A DNA stretch of 64,000 nucleotides from Pedobacter chitinilyticus (GTDB taxonomy: Bacteria; Bacteroidota; Bacteroidia; Sphingobacteriales; Sphingobacteriaceae). Where the stretch lies: the NCBI RefSeq assembly GCF_003313385.1, contig NZ_QMHN01000001.1:1166097-1230096 (forward strand), written 5' to 3'. The position numbers and the translations under genes were made by a program. Shown one piece after another: positions 620-16,174 of the stretch (position 1 is the stretch's first letter; each line of letters begins with the position of its first letter). Below the pieces are notes generated by a model. The model saw only the letters and a list, made by a program, of their open reading frames with translations. It did no database searches and was not told where the DNA came from.

Positions 620-1795
620 CTAATAATTGCCTGTCACACCCAATTCCAATCCACGTAATTCGGCCAAACCACGCAAACGGCCTATGGCTGAGTAACCTGG
701 GTTGGTTACCTTATTTAAATCATCCAGCATTTGGTGTCCGTGATCAGGTCTAAAAGGAATAGGTGCGGTACGTTTAGCATTCTCTGCCGTCACGACTTTC
801 ATTACTTCGTACATGTTTACATCACCTCCTAAGTGATCGGCTTCGTAAAAATTACCCTCTTCATCCTTGGTGACATTACGCAAATGCAAAAAGTAAACGC
901 GTTCTTTTACGGCTTCAAAAATCTCAACCAAATTGTTTTTGTCGCCTGGACCCAATGAACCTGTGCAATAGCAAATGCCATTGAAAGCTTGGTCTACGCT
1001 ACGCAAAATACTCACTAAATCTTCTTTAGTGCTTGCTACACGCGGCAAACCTAAAATTGGATAAGGAGGGTCATCAGGGTGGATGGTCATTTTAATGCCC
1101 AGCTCGGTACATGTTTCGGCAATGCCCTCTAAAAACCAAGTAAGGTTGGCCCTTAGTCCATCGTGGCCAATGGCTTTATATTCGTCAATGCTGGCACGTA
1201 AGGCCTCTAATTCAATTTCTTTTTCATTGGGAATACCCATTAATACATTGATGCGCAAGTCATCTAACTCGGCTTGGCTCATGGTTTCAAATTTGGTTTT
1301 GGCCTTTGCTGCTATTTGAGGTGTATAATCAGCTTCGGCTCCTTCCCTCTTGAAAATGAACAAATCAAAAATGGCCAGATCTGTCCAATTGAAATAAAGG
1401 GCTTTGGCACCGTTAGGCATTTCAAGATCCAGTTGTGTACGGGTCCAATCTAATACGGGCATAAAATTGTAGCAAATGGTTTTTATGCCACATTGTGCTA
1501 AATTCCTTAACGATTGGTTATAGTTTTGCAGGTAATGCTCGGCATTAGGTCTACGGGTTTTGATGGCCTCGTGTACTGGTACGCTTTCGACCACACTCCA
1601 GGTCAATCCAGCGGCTTCAATGATGGCTTTACGTTCTAATATATCTTCTACGGGCCAAACTTCGCCGTGTGGAATATGGTGCAGGGCACTTACAATGCCA
1701 CTTGCTCCAGCTTGTCTAACATCTTGTAATGAAACTGGATCATTTGGTCCGTACCAACGCCAAGTTTGTAATAGTTTATGTTTTTGGTTGCTCAT
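620..1795 (-). CDS. uxuA: D-mannonate dehydratase
   Basis: This 391-residue cytoplasmic enzyme converts D-mannonate to 2-keto-3-deoxy-D-gluconate in glucuronate catabolism. The N-terminus (QTWRWYGPNDPVSLQDVRQAG) and the central metal-binding stretches (MTIHPDDPP, YCTGSLGPG, HLRNV, FRPDHGHQM) are the family's characteristic segments, and the length fits UxuA. The ATG at 1795 is the only good start. The gene stands alone: no uxaC, uxuB or kdgK follows, and the next gene on the left is the tRNA. A 20-base LacI-type palindrome lies 70 bases upstream, so repression by a hexuronate-responsive regulator encoded elsewhere is likely. Confidence 0.95.
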   Translation of the reverse strand: MSNQKHKLLQTWRWYGPNDPVSLQDVRQAGASGIVSALHHIPHGEVWPVEDILERKAIIEAAGLTWSVVESVPVHEAIKTRRPNAEHYLQNYNQSLRNLAQCGIKTICYNFMPVLDWTRTQLDLEMPNGAKALYFNWTDLAIFDLFIFKREGAEADYTPQIAAKAKTKFETMSQAELDDLRINVLMGIPNEKEIELEALRASIDEYKAIGHDGLRANLTWFLEGIAETCTELGIKMTIHPDDPPYPILGLPRVASTKEDLVSILRSVDQAFNGICYCTGSLGPGDKNNLVEIFEAVKERVYFLHLRNVTKDEEGNFYEADHLGGDVNMYEVMKVVTAENAKRTAPIPFRPDHGHQMLDDLNKVTNPGYSAIGRLRGLAELRGLELGVTGNY

Positions 1796-1865: not shown

Positions 1866-1885
1866 TTACGGAAACGTTATCGTAA
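1866..1885. promoter_or_regulatory. LacI-family-type operator upstream of uxuA
   Basis: The sequence TTACGGAAACGTTATCGTAA is a near-perfect palindrome of the form TTACGnnAACGTTnnCGTAA. The central AACGTT with a CpG core is the hallmark of LacI/GalR-family operators. It lies 70 bases before the uxuA ATG. The function is inferred from the symmetry and the neighbouring gene; no LacI-type gene is in the window. Confidence 0.55.
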
Positions 1886-1922
1886 ACAAAGGGATACTGG
1901 TTGATGACACTCCATAACAAGG

Positions 1923-1982
1923 AAAAAAAAGCCCGCCACCAGAGGATCATCAGATGATTAGAAAACACCAGAAGGTGACGGG
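1923..1982 (-). terminator. rho-independent terminator / second attenuator-like hairpin
   Basis: On the minus strand CCCGTCACC (1982-1974) pairs with GGTGGCGGG (1940-1932), with one G-U pair and about 33 bases between the arms. Eight T residues (1930-1923) follow directly. The right arm is identical to that of the hairpin at 2067-2130, so the two can form alternative pairings. It lies between the leader ORF and uxuA. Confidence 0.65.
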
Positions 1983-2037
1983 TGCGACGGGATCAAACGC
2001 CGACTTTTCTTTCTATGAAAAAAGAAGATCAATCAAA

Positions 2038-2166
2038 TCAAATGGGGTAAAATCCATTACCATTACAAAAAATGCCCGCCACCACAGAAATTAAATTAAA
2101 CCCAAGATTATGTATAAGAAGGCGGCGGGCAAATCGGTAAAAAATGATGGTGGCAACAACCATCAT
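2038..2166 (-). CDS. putative leader peptide of an attenuator (42 codons)
   Basis: A short minus-strand ORF starts with two ATG codons at 2166 and 2163 and reads MMVVATIIFYRFARRLL before continuing for about 25 codons to TGA. The run Val-Val-Ala-Thr-Ile-Ile lies in the first hairpin, and the Ala-Arg-Arg codons form the left arm of the first strong terminator hairpin. That is the layout of translation-coupled attenuators of branched-chain amino-acid operons. No such biosynthetic operon follows; the next gene is uxuA. The arrangement of codons and hairpins is directly visible; a regulatory role is inference. Confidence 0.4.
   Translation of the reverse strand: MMVVATIIFYRFARRLLIHNLGFNLISVVAGIFCNGNGFYPI
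2067..2130 (-). terminator. rho-independent terminator / first attenuator-like hairpin
   Basis: On the minus strand GCCCGCCGCC (2130-2121) pairs over all ten positions, one of them G-U, with GGTGGCGGGC (2083-2074). A six-T tract (2072-2067) follows after one A. The loop is about 37 bases. The left arm begins inside the leader ORF just after its Val/Thr/Ile codons. Confidence 0.65.
2139..2166 (-). terminator. weak hairpin over the leader start codons with T tail
   Basis: On the minus strand ATGATGG (2166-2160) pairs with CCATCAT (2150-2144), with a 9-base loop, and T residues run on to 2139. The hairpin covers the leader start and control codons. It could act as a pause hairpin (the '1:2' element of an attenuator) rather than as a terminator. 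Confidence 0.35.
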
Positions 2167-2180
2167 CTTATATTAAATAA

Positions 2181-2307
2181 CCAGTCCTTAAGGCATTATT
2201 ACATGCCGCAGCGGAAAAACCGTATTGCTTATTACAAAAATTTACCTACCTTGTGTTTGCGAAAACCCCAAAGCAAGTACCCTAATTGTTAAGCTTTTAA
2301 GGACTGG
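2181..2307. other. structured non-coding segment closed by an 11-bp inverted repeat
   Basis: CCAGTCCTTAA (2181-2191) is exactly complementary to TTAAGGACTGG (2297-2307). The intervening 105 bases hold smaller hairpins, for example GGCAT/ATGCC just inside the left arm and CTTG/CAAG around 2250-2277. On the minus strand a T-tailed hairpin follows 15 bases later. This is compatible with a small structured RNA or a long leader. I do not recognise a known RNA family. The rest of the spacer to the HTH gene (2308-2625) shows only a 7-bp hairpin at 2451-2467 and no gene. Confidence 0.35.
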
Positions 2308-2625
2308 TGCCAAGGAAAATGTAGCCTGCCTTTGATTTTTTCCACCTCTCTCTCATTGGGCTTACAGCTATTTTACTTGGAGTTTCTTATCGGCTTAACA
2401 GAAGGAACTAGCTACGTTTTTAAAAAGGCTTTTTTGGAAGAATTTCTGTTTTACCTCCTTGAGGTAAGCACAGTAAATGTTGATTTTTTTATTTTTCATT
2501 TCGGTTGAATTTTTGACCAAATGTTAAGCGGGCTATCTAGTACCGCTGTTAAATTTCAACAGCTTTTTCTAATACTTATGAAAGCCAATTTTACTTGTTT
2601 TCGCATTATGGTTGAACAATAGTAC

Positions 2626-2656
2626 AAAAAGTTTCTCATTAAACGATAAACTTTTT
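2626..2656. promoter_or_regulatory. inverted repeat before the small HTH gene
   Basis: AAAAAGTTT (2626-2634) and AAACTTTTT (2648-2656) form a perfect 9-bp inverted repeat with a 13-base spacer. It ends 19 bases before the ATG at 2676. It is a reasonable autoregulatory operator for the HTH protein, but its AT-rich content means chance cannot be excluded. Confidence 0.35.
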
Positions 2657-2675
2657 GAAATATTTTTTTTCTAAA

Positions 2676-2897
2676 ATGAAGAAAATTAATCGTTTAAGCG
2701 AAATACTGGAAGAGAAGGGCATATACAATAGGGAAATTGCTAAACTCTTAAATAAATCAGACCAGACGGTCTCTAGGTGGATTCATAACCATCGGCAACC
2801 TTCGGTTACCGATTTATATGCGATTGCTGAATATTTAAAAATTGATATCAGAAGTCTTCTTTATCCAACAGATTGGACAAAAAAGACTTCGAAGTAA
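2676..2897 (+). CDS. small XRE-family helix-turn-helix protein
   Basis: The 73-residue protein is almost entirely one XRE/Cro-type HTH domain. After an N-terminal helix, NREIAKLLNKSDQTVSRWIHNHRQPSVTD forms the helix-turn-helix, and AIAEYLKIDIRSLL the following helices. It has no effector domain, so it is likely a DNA-binding repressor or an orphan antitoxin-like regulator. An upstream TTG at 2655 is in frame, but it would add FFFS-type residues and overlap the inverted repeat, so the ATG at 2676 is preferred. No toxin partner is adjacent: the downstream gene is convergent. Confidence 0.8.
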   Translation: MKKINRLSEILEEKGIYNREIAKLLNKSDQTVSRWIHNHRQPSVTDLYAIAEYLKIDIRSLLYPTDWTKKTSK

Positions 2898-2912
2898 TTT
2901 GAGTCGATCAGT

Positions 2913-3917
2913 TTATCTTAAAACTTCGGCTACTATTTCGTAAGACCGTAACCTTGCTTGGTGATCATAAATGTGGGAGGTTACCATTAGTTCGTCTACT
3001 TGGGTGTGTTTTAGAAAGGATTGAAGTTGTTCTTTTAGTTTTTCTGGACCAGCAATAAAGGTGAAATCTAGCATTTGCTCTACTGCAGCTTCTTCTATAT
3101 CGCTCCAAATCCCCTCCATACTGTCTACAGGAGGTTGTAGCAGACGTCGTTTGTTGGTTACAATGCCCATAAACAACATTTTTAAAGAGGTTGATAGTCT
3201 TTCCGCTTCTTCATCGGTATCCGCTGCAACAACGTTTACACAAGAAAGCACATAAGGTTTTTGTAAGACCTCTGATGGTCTAAAGTTTTGACGATAGATT
3301 TGGATGGCTTCAAAGAAATGGGTGGGTGCAAAATGACTGGCGAAGGCATAAGGCAATCCATAAGAGGCTGCTAAATGCGCACTCTCTGTACTAGAACCTA
3401 AAATCCAGATGGGTACATTGGTTCCTTCACCAGGAATAGCCCTTACCCTACTGTCGTAGTTATCATCGCCTAAATATTGTTGCAGCTTCCGTACGTCTTG
3501 TGGGAAATTTTGCGACGAATGAAAACGTTCACCTCTAATCTCGAAGGCTGTTAATTGATCGGTACCGGGTGCTCGCCCCAAACCTAGGTCTATCCTATTG
3601 GGGTAAATGGTGGCCAGTGTTCCAAATTGTTCGGCAATAATAAGTGGTGTATGGTTGGGAAGCATGATGCCGCCAGAACCTACCCTAATGGTTTTGGTAT
3701 GGCCTGCAATGTGGCCAATCAATACTGAAGTGGCTGAGCTGGCTACGCTGATCATGTTGTGGTGTTCGGCTAACCAGTAACGGTTGTAACCCAGCTTTTC
3801 GGCATGTTGGGCTAAACTTACACTGTTGTTAAAAGTGTCGGCAATGGTATGTCCTTCTATAACGCCTGCCAAATCCAATACGGAATACGGCAGTCCTGAT
3901 AATTTTTTTTCGCTCAT
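2913..3917 (-). CDS. LLM-class (bacterial luciferase-like) flavin-dependent oxidoreductase
   Basis: The 334-residue protein is a single TIM-barrel monooxygenase domain of the luciferase-like superfamily. Family signatures are visible: LDLAGV near the start, [12 protein letters not shown] around residues 44-55, [14 protein letters not shown] around 97-110, and [11 protein letters not shown] around 130-140. It resembles the uncharacterised YhbW/MsnO8-type group that uses FMNH2; the substrate is unknown. It follows an ArsR-type regulator by only 10 bases and is surely co-transcribed with it, so expression probably depends on the signal sensed by that regulator. Confidence 0.9.
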
Positions 3918-4242: not shown

Positions 4243-4302
4243 TATCGACTTTTTCCGATATTCCAATTATGGGTAGCAGAGATGACAAACCGCAGATATT
4301 TT

Positions 4303-4350
4303 TAGGAACTAGGAACTAGGAACTAGTGGTTAGTGGCTAGTAGCTAGTGG
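4303..4350. repeat. CTAG/TTAG-rich dispersed repeat
   Basis: The stretch is made of short imperfect copies of GGAACTA and TAGTGGTTAGTGGCTAG. The same style of sequence occurs at 14163-14228, 15858-15900, 24909-25003, 38101-38125 and 63979-64000. It is always in spacers, so it is a dispersed repeat family. Confidence 0.65.
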
Positions 4351-4357
4351 TTAGTTG

Positions 4358-4389
4358 GTTCATTAGTTCATTAGTTCATTAGTTCATTA
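4358..4389. repeat. octamer tandem array (GTTCATTA)x4
   Basis: Four exact head-to-tail copies of the 8-base unit GTTCATTA lie in the spacer before the metal-responsive two-component genes. Confidence 0.95.
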
Positions 4390-4397
4390 GGGATTGG

Positions 4398-4453
4398 TTT
4401 AATTGTTTAATTGTTTAATTGTTTAATTGTTTAATTGTTTAATTGTTTAACTG
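4398..4453. repeat. octamer tandem array (TTTAATTG)x6 plus one degenerate unit
   Basis: Six exact copies of TTTAATTG are followed by TTTAACTG. The array begins eight bases after the GTTCATTA array and ends about 100 bases before the response-regulator promoter. Arrays of this type change length by slippage. Confidence 0.95.
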
Positions 4454-4555
4454 GTTAATTTTTTATTAGGGATTAACAGCTAACAACCTACTCATTATCA
4501 CATTGGCTTATTATCAAATTATCGCATCCAATTGTCGCATTAGCTAATTGTTTAC

Positions 4556-15900: not shown

Positions 15901-16018
15901 GAAAGCACAGTTCATAATTTCTATAGTCAAAATTTAATCGTTATAGATTGCTTCGTAAAGCTCGCAATGACGTTCCTATTTAATTTCTGCAATATTACCA
16001 CCGAACTTTGTAAACCAA

Positions 16019-16174
16019 ACCTGATAGCAACGGAAATACTTTTTGTTGAACTCGATGAACAAACCTCTTAGGTTTTAAAAACCTAAGAGGTTTAGGCGGA
16101 TGCAATCACAAAAAGATTGAAGTGAATAGCAGGGCTACGGGAAGCGATAAAAACCTAAACCTGCTTTTCAAAAC
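16019..16174. repeat. REP/BIME-like element with nested 15-bp palindrome
   Basis: The element begins CCTGATAGCAACGG and ends CCTGCTTTTCAAAAC. Inside, AAACCTCTTAGGTTT (16061-16075) is perfectly complementary to AAACCTAAGAGGTTT (16079-16093) with a 3-base loop. The outer parts (TACTTTTTG and CAAAAAGATTGAAGTGAATA) can pair partially. From memory, similar elements are scattered in Bacteroidota spacers. Confidence 0.55.

Follow-up and report, generated by a model that had tools for sequence, protein, structure and literature searches.

The 64,000-nucleotide stretch of Pedobacter chitinilyticus DNA analysed here (the window) contains, in its first 3,000 nucleotides, the mannonate dehydratase gene uxuA and a small divergent gene for a Cro/C1-type HTH regulator, and the features in the gap between them are the subject of this report (Table 1). 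The gene order uxuA, T1/T2 region and HTH gene is shared by two relatives, G017 and G131, which were placed in Pedobacter from their best-named uxuA matches. An earlier sequence-only reading had named a mannonate dehydratase with its own palindrome as the next gene. Both remarks hold: the Pfam match is strong, and 9 of 27 relatives have a like palindrome in the 500 nt preceding uxuA. The gene probably has its own promoter. An inverted repeat like that in front of the HTH gene also precedes a like HTH gene at another locus (L011, by eye). Elsewhere in the window lie two Flavo-1 RNAs (RF01705; 12624-12783 on the minus strand and 16013-16140 on the plus strand) and an intergenic run of short tandem repeats at 4296-4480, noted by eye.

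Table 1. Features at the uxuA-HTH locus (positions within the window)
Feature	Position	Strand	Details
uxuA, mannonate dehydratase	620-1795	-	PF03786, 2.4e-117
Palindrome upstream of uxuA	near 1866-1886		
Predicted terminator T2	1923-1982	-	Stem 1974-1982 / 1932-1940; T-run 1923-1930
ORF MMVVATII..., 42 aa, mechanically called	2038-2166	-	Not conserved
Predicted terminator T1	2067-2130	-	Stem 2121-2130 / 2074-2083; 37-nt loop partly conserved in sequence; T-run 2067-2072
Inverted repeat over MMVVATII ORF start	2138-2151 / 2159-2172		
3' domain of the RNA (model R2)	2172-2338	-	Closing helix 2297-2308 / 2180-2191; weak T-run after it
Decayed ORF1	2395-2499	-	MKNKKINIYCAYLKEVKQKFFQKSLFKNVASSFC, then stop
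Possible -7 element	2617-2624	-	TACTATTG; one mismatch to TAnnTTTG
Inverted repeat, possible operator	2626-2656		AAAAAGTTT...AAACTTTTT; flanked by the RNA promoter and the HTH gene
Small divergent HTH (Cro/C1-type) regulator gene	2676-2897	+	PF01381, 1.8e-11

T1 and T2 are two stable, GC-rich hairpins on the minus strand, each followed by a T-run, and their right arms are identical over the ten letters GGTGGCGGGC, as the earlier reading had described. With at most one mismatch, GGTGGCGGGCNTTTTTT occurs twice in the window versus 0.00 times expected from 100 shuffles, and the minus strand from 2300 to 1915 folds with -110.58 kcal/mol versus -90.07 +/- 4.88 kcal/mol in 100 shuffles (z -4.20). 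Genome-wide, GGCGGGCNTTTTT has three occurrences, two of them at the T1/T2 region, which is the one place where the exact terminator pattern forms a pair. The idea of a repeat or mobile hairpin was rejected, since the paired pattern occurs nowhere else in the genome. A search of the genome retrieved only this region and a 54-nt stretch of a second RNA copy described below.

Alignment with G017 and G131 revealed that both hairpins are kept as base-paired stems with altered letters. A G-U pair in the T1 stem of the window is A-U in G131 and a C-G pair appears as U-G; in the T2 stem, U-G is replaced by C-G, C-G by U-A, and A-U by G-U. Four wobble cells in these stems, taken over the three genomes, pair on the minus strand only. 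A simple hairpin rule applied to the 500 nt upstream of uxuA detected T1 and T2 in the window and in G017, and such hairpins in 0 of 27 other relatives. Because the stems recur with changed letters and these 27 relatives have no such hairpin, the sequences indicate that T1 and T2 are real terminators, beyond chance. They sit between two transcription units and could thus merely serve uxuA or HTH housekeeping and have nothing to do with the RNA. However, on the minus strand they read away from the RNA, which precedes them, and come ahead of the uxuA palindrome; the 0 of 27 count also argues against this explanation, which we consider very unlikely.

The region had previously been interpreted as an ilv/thr-type attenuator, duplicated and left behind by a lost or moved biosynthetic operon, or else as a stand-alone regulatory RNA. 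The 42-codon MMVVATII ORF does exist, and an inverted repeat spans its start. That it is a gene, however, was not confirmed; G017 and G131 read MAYLWP-stop and MLLVLT-stop at the same place. In the same genome, ilvD (located via PF00920) and thrA (located via PF00742) keep leaders of their own, MRLTTVIINNIIVIPHQREGNRCI-stop (read from sequence) and MIFNSSIITTIIITGGKSYREQ-stop, respectively, each with a regulatory-codon run and a terminator, and by eye neither of these two leaders resembles the T1/T2 region. An amino-acid attenuator is therefore unsupported, because the ORF is not kept and ilvD and thrA have their own leaders. An intrinsic terminator is present at the T1/T2 region, whereas a conserved leader and a matching biosynthetic operon are absent; of the supposed duplication, the two terminators were found and a second leader was not seen. 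Thus, even with a Val/Thr/Ile-codon ORF, a hairpin and terminators in the correct order, a relic of an ilv/leu/thr leader-peptide attenuator is hardly credible, the more so as other members of the family to which the surrounding RNA belongs stand before receptor-like genes. The guess of a biosynthetic-operon relic falls with it, while the notion of a minus-strand regulatory RNA and of a relic of a moved unit survives: the T1/T2 region appears to form the 3' end of a structured RNA whose family usually precedes large receptor-like genes. Full copies of this RNA do carry a leader-peptide-like ORF, at another position and of another kind.

On the minus strand, 2172-2620 is a shortened copy of this structured RNA of about 650 nt. 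The R2 model of the 3' domain scores the window copy with 126.9 bits, the window copy itself being part of the model alignment. R1, the model of the 5' domain, found no match in it (best 7.7 bits in 2100-3000 with filters off). We therefore regard the window copy as a shortened variant, assigned to the family by its 3' domain, the remains of ORF1 and its genomic neighbourhood. The distance to the HTH start is 508 nt versus about 710 nt, making the copy about 200 nt shorter. It retains the 3' domain with its closing helix and the divergent small HTH gene; missing are R1, the next-to-last proline of ORF1 and a co-directional receptor-like ORF downstream, where uxuA is found. Its ORF1 ends KNVASSFC-stop, with phenylalanine at the next-to-last proline site, and G131 and G017 keep SPS-stop. 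The RNA start is predicted near 2610. The segment 2169-2340 shares 89-90% identity with its counterparts in G017 and G131, and 71% over about 140 nt with a third genome (G081). In blastn searches with E up to 0.001 it matched 22 of 145 Pedobacter genomes, although on visual inspection the rows of three of them (L103, L105, L109) seem to be chance hits to coding DNA. A second, full copy resides about 68 kb away in the same genome (L002/L012; G000:C2 near 1100400), followed by a thioredoxin-like gene and then a 1053-aa SusC-like ORF (by eye). From these sequence comparisons, the window copy is probably a shortened, decaying descendant of the full RNA, without its former target, and the window locus itself is a minor relic.

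The family is defined by a conserved block of about 700 nt in alignments of 21 copies and of 18 full copies. Folding energy is -245 for the minus strand (window sense) versus -202 for the plus strand, and at 108 shared pairs 86 wobble cells pair on the minus strand only versus 34 on the plus strand only. We assign the RNA to the minus strand because of folding energy, wobble bias, promoter position and gene direction. A plus-strand RNA, to which a conserved TTG-N18-TACCTTG block had first been attributed as a promoter, was rejected. In the R1 model (50 pairs, 17 sequences), 96.0% of the cells are paired versus 87.5 shuffled, and there are 73 double-changed cells versus 20.4 shuffled, a count that relatedness of the sequences can inflate; slid controls collapse. 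R1 matches (E up to 0.01) were detected in 132 of 399 Sphingobacteriaceae genomes and 10 of 25 genera, with at most six per genome, and R2 matches in 49 of 144 Pedobacter genomes. Searched across the class (E up to 0.001), R1 matched 6 of 395 genomes: three genomes of the same genus, G723 of another family with a strong match, and two further genomes with weak matches.

Rfam 15 returned three hits in the window at gathering score, all located elsewhere than the RNA. At E up to 5, the interval 1780-2700 gave seven weak hits (best 25.2 bits versus a cut-off of 60) and one full copy gave none, and in loci L115-L124 only a tRNA was found. A plasmid search with one full copy had no match, and a viral-contig match to a 17-mer was discarded as not being a family member by R1. 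No such RNA family appeared among the literature matches listed (for example, the best 20 of 1,280, with subscription papers mostly outside). As far as these Rfam and literature searches reach, the family is uncatalogued.

We inspected 41 copies, chosen from the best matches plus some weaker ones. From 5' to 3' they are ordered as divergent small ORF, R1, ORF1, R2 and a co-directional large ORF. By rule, the divergent small ORF was recognized in 36 of 41 copies; among the five missed, it is visible in L119, L130, L009 and L204 and not in L120. Two of six divergent small proteins tested matched HTH families in Pfam. The inverted repeats between the starts of the RNA and of the divergent gene differ among copies (by eye). 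Close to the 5' end, 33 of 38 earlier full copies and 17 of 18 new ones carry TAnnTTTG, which has been described as the -7 box of Flavobacterium psychrophilum (PMC9723704). In 32 of 41 copies, a large ORF (800 aa or more) in the same direction as the RNA lies within 6.5 kb; of the nine without one by rule, some are at loci that end early. Eight large ORFs were tested against Pfam: six contain a TonB plug, one is a lantibiotic dehydratase and one has no family. At L207 (8088-11033), a sigma factor (by eye) and the lantibiotic dehydratase are found downstream instead of a receptor. A sigma-factor-like gene lies directly 3' of the RNA at L125 and L127, the latter with sigma-70 region 4. Some Pedobacter copies contain, ahead of the receptor genes, another short ORF that ends KPKNPV-stop or KRNPE-stop and is followed by a terminator (L115-L118, L126, L128 and L012, with ..LYALKPKNPV-stop or ..LVKRNPE-stop, partly by eye); it is possibly a tandem second arrest peptide. 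Homology of T1 to the post-ORF2 terminators of other Pedobacter copies looked good by eye and was dropped, because with a profile of other copies' terminators neither the window nor G131 or G017 scored above shuffled sequences.

Beyond the divergent small gene, defence-like genes are present at L117, L118, L119, L126, L130 and L209. They include TIR-LRR-Roc, PbeA helicase, GmrSD, a Septu-like pair, putAbiC and PDC-M71B. Ten proteins from seven loci were tested, of which two from L115 had weak or no PADLOC hits, and at 4 of the 7 loci the defence-like genes share the orientation of the regulator gene. The RNA is possibly a marker of a defence hotspot. An alternative that we consider rather unlikely is that full copies are independent RNAs associated with the HTH (and defence) side, parked beside receptor genes and ending, for example, at the GGGCTGGTTTTT helix. 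The frequent divergent small ORF, the defence-like genes past it in several loci and, in many copies, an R2 helix followed by a T-run would fit such an RNA. However, the proteins and cargo of the HTH side vary while a large co-directional ORF recurs in 32 of 41 copies, and ORF1 resembles a leader peptide. By analogy, full copies are most likely leader-peptide attenuators of TonB-receptor operons.

ORF1 encodes 28-47 residues in the 41 copies, with a proline at the next-to-last position in 40 of them, the window copy being the exception. Its tail is near Lys-Asn...Pro-X-stop, and some copies end RAPE or RAPQ; in G723, ORF1 reads MRTTFSTQLLIGPPE-stop. This proline is encoded by CCA (15), CCG (9), CCT (9) and CCC (7), and since all four CCN codons are used, the ORF1 peptide and not just the RNA appears to be under selection. 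In the 41 copies, ORF1 was selected with a pattern requiring KN close to its end (for L200 and L204, with a pattern that included the proline); the unbiased figure is therefore that of a rule without a proline requirement, applied to 30 loci, 12 used before and 18 new. Under this rule, the next-to-last proline is present in all 18 new copies and in 11 of the 12 used before, versus 104 of 1231 control ORFs; at L135, among the 12, the rule takes another, proline-less ORF. Full copies thus have the C-terminal proline-based core of arrest peptides, conserved at the peptide level. AAG at codon -8 (35 of 41) and AAC at codon -7 (37 of 41) are nearly fixed, beyond amino-acid need, which points to an RNA role of this stretch as well. 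The ORF1 tail can pair with the loop of the downstream terminator in 10 of 31 copies versus 2.1 expected. Judged by its likeness to known peptides, ORF1 looks able to stall ribosomes.

From the existence of the family, the strand on which it folds, the genes around it, the conservation of ORF1 and the losses in the window copy, all read from sequence, we propose how transcription, arrest, attenuation, insulation and HTH control might be connected. The RNA of the window would start near 2610, run through 2172-2338 and end at T1/T2, with the adjoining HTH regulator probably controlling it. Full members would act as leaders of about 650 nt, mostly of TonB-receptor-like operons, and encode the short peptide ORF1. 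Ribosomes stalling at the ORF1 end, or being released there, would refold the downstream RNA and so decide on termination before the receptor genes; this part is proposed because of the analogy with uA_NSP-stop and CruR discussed below. In many copies, the preceding GTTCGCC..CTATTG and the following GTTCGCCCTATTG can each pair with CAATAGGGCGAAC, an alternative pairing read by eye from alignments and folds that may constitute a switch. In the window copy, where the receptor genes and the 5' domain are missing and the ORF1 proline is lost, T1 and T2 would now end the RNA and keep transcription out of uxuA. We consider it reasonably probable that T1 and T2 are the 3' terminators of a minus-strand, decaying member of a leader-RNA family whose full members attenuate by ORF1 arrest. 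The mismatch in the -7 box of the window, the lack of an R1 match in the window copy, T1 being unlinked by profile, the restriction of the pairing between ORF1 tail and terminator loop to 10 of 31 copies, the two of eight downstream ORFs that are not TonB receptors and the nine of 41 copies without a large ORF by rule speak against it.

The letters of the T1 loop are partly conserved across the three genomes while those of the stem change, and no receptor gene follows in the clade of the window copy. This would suit a functional trans-acting small RNA, with the conserved T1 loop as its pairing site and the tandem terminators fixing its end; however, the wider family looks leader-like, and we regard such a small RNA as unlikely. 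If the leader reading with ORF1 arrest is true, it adds an arrest-peptide-based switch for TonB receptors and provides a natural peptide set for studying arrest near the stop codon. TonB receptors are nutrient gates that can also serve phages, and the adjoining defence genes make the region of interest as a joint receptor/defence locus. It is tempting to speculate, though we find it somewhat doubtful, that a widespread class of leaders of about 650 nt couples a RAP-like stop-proximal arrest peptide to conformational gating of TonB-receptor operons, the leaders using the same promoter region as divergent, rapidly changing HTH regulators that adjoin phage-defence genes, such that receptor display and defence are switched together. 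As it stands, a structured RNA absent from Rfam is present in a third of the sampled family genomes.

With the ilvD and thrA attenuators, the RNA family shares a leader ORF followed by a hairpin with a T-run, but it has neither a conserved regulatory-codon run nor a biosynthetic operon downstream. It resembles GOLLD, ROOL and OLE, described as large conserved bacterial RNAs (PMC12286853), but differs from them in having no Rfam match, encoding a peptide and mostly preceding receptor-like genes. The C-terminal Arg-Ala-Pro core reported for ApcA, ApdA and ApdP (PMC12992588, PMC10951233) is similar to the tail of the ORF1 copies that end RAPE or RAPQ, but these peptides are described with protein-localisation genes, and for ORF1 the arrest itself is a proposal. 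CruR (DUF2946) of the Bordetella bfrG operon is a nascent peptide with a C-terminal RAPP motif that reportedly regulates a TonB-dependent transporter through termination of transcription (PMC9426467). It differs in its 145 residues, its copper response via CXXC, Rho dependence and an mRNA stretch described as unstructured (PMC9426467), and its arrest was not directly demonstrated according to PMC10987492. In peptide design, ORF1 also resembles uA_NSP-stop, a short upstream ORF with conserved Lys, Asn and Pro at the very end, which originates from Sphingobacteriaceae (PMC10987492). That report gives in vitro peptidyl-tRNA levels of about 30-50% in the E. coli system and >50% in a B. subtilis system, and the stop codon plus the Lys, Asn and Pro near it mattered in vitro (PMC10987492). 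The uA peptides are described as preceding secA/secDF, having a predicted N-terminal localisation signal and carrying proline last (PMC10987492), whereas ORF1 has its proline next to last, lies mostly before TonB-receptor-like genes and is embedded in a large structured RNA.
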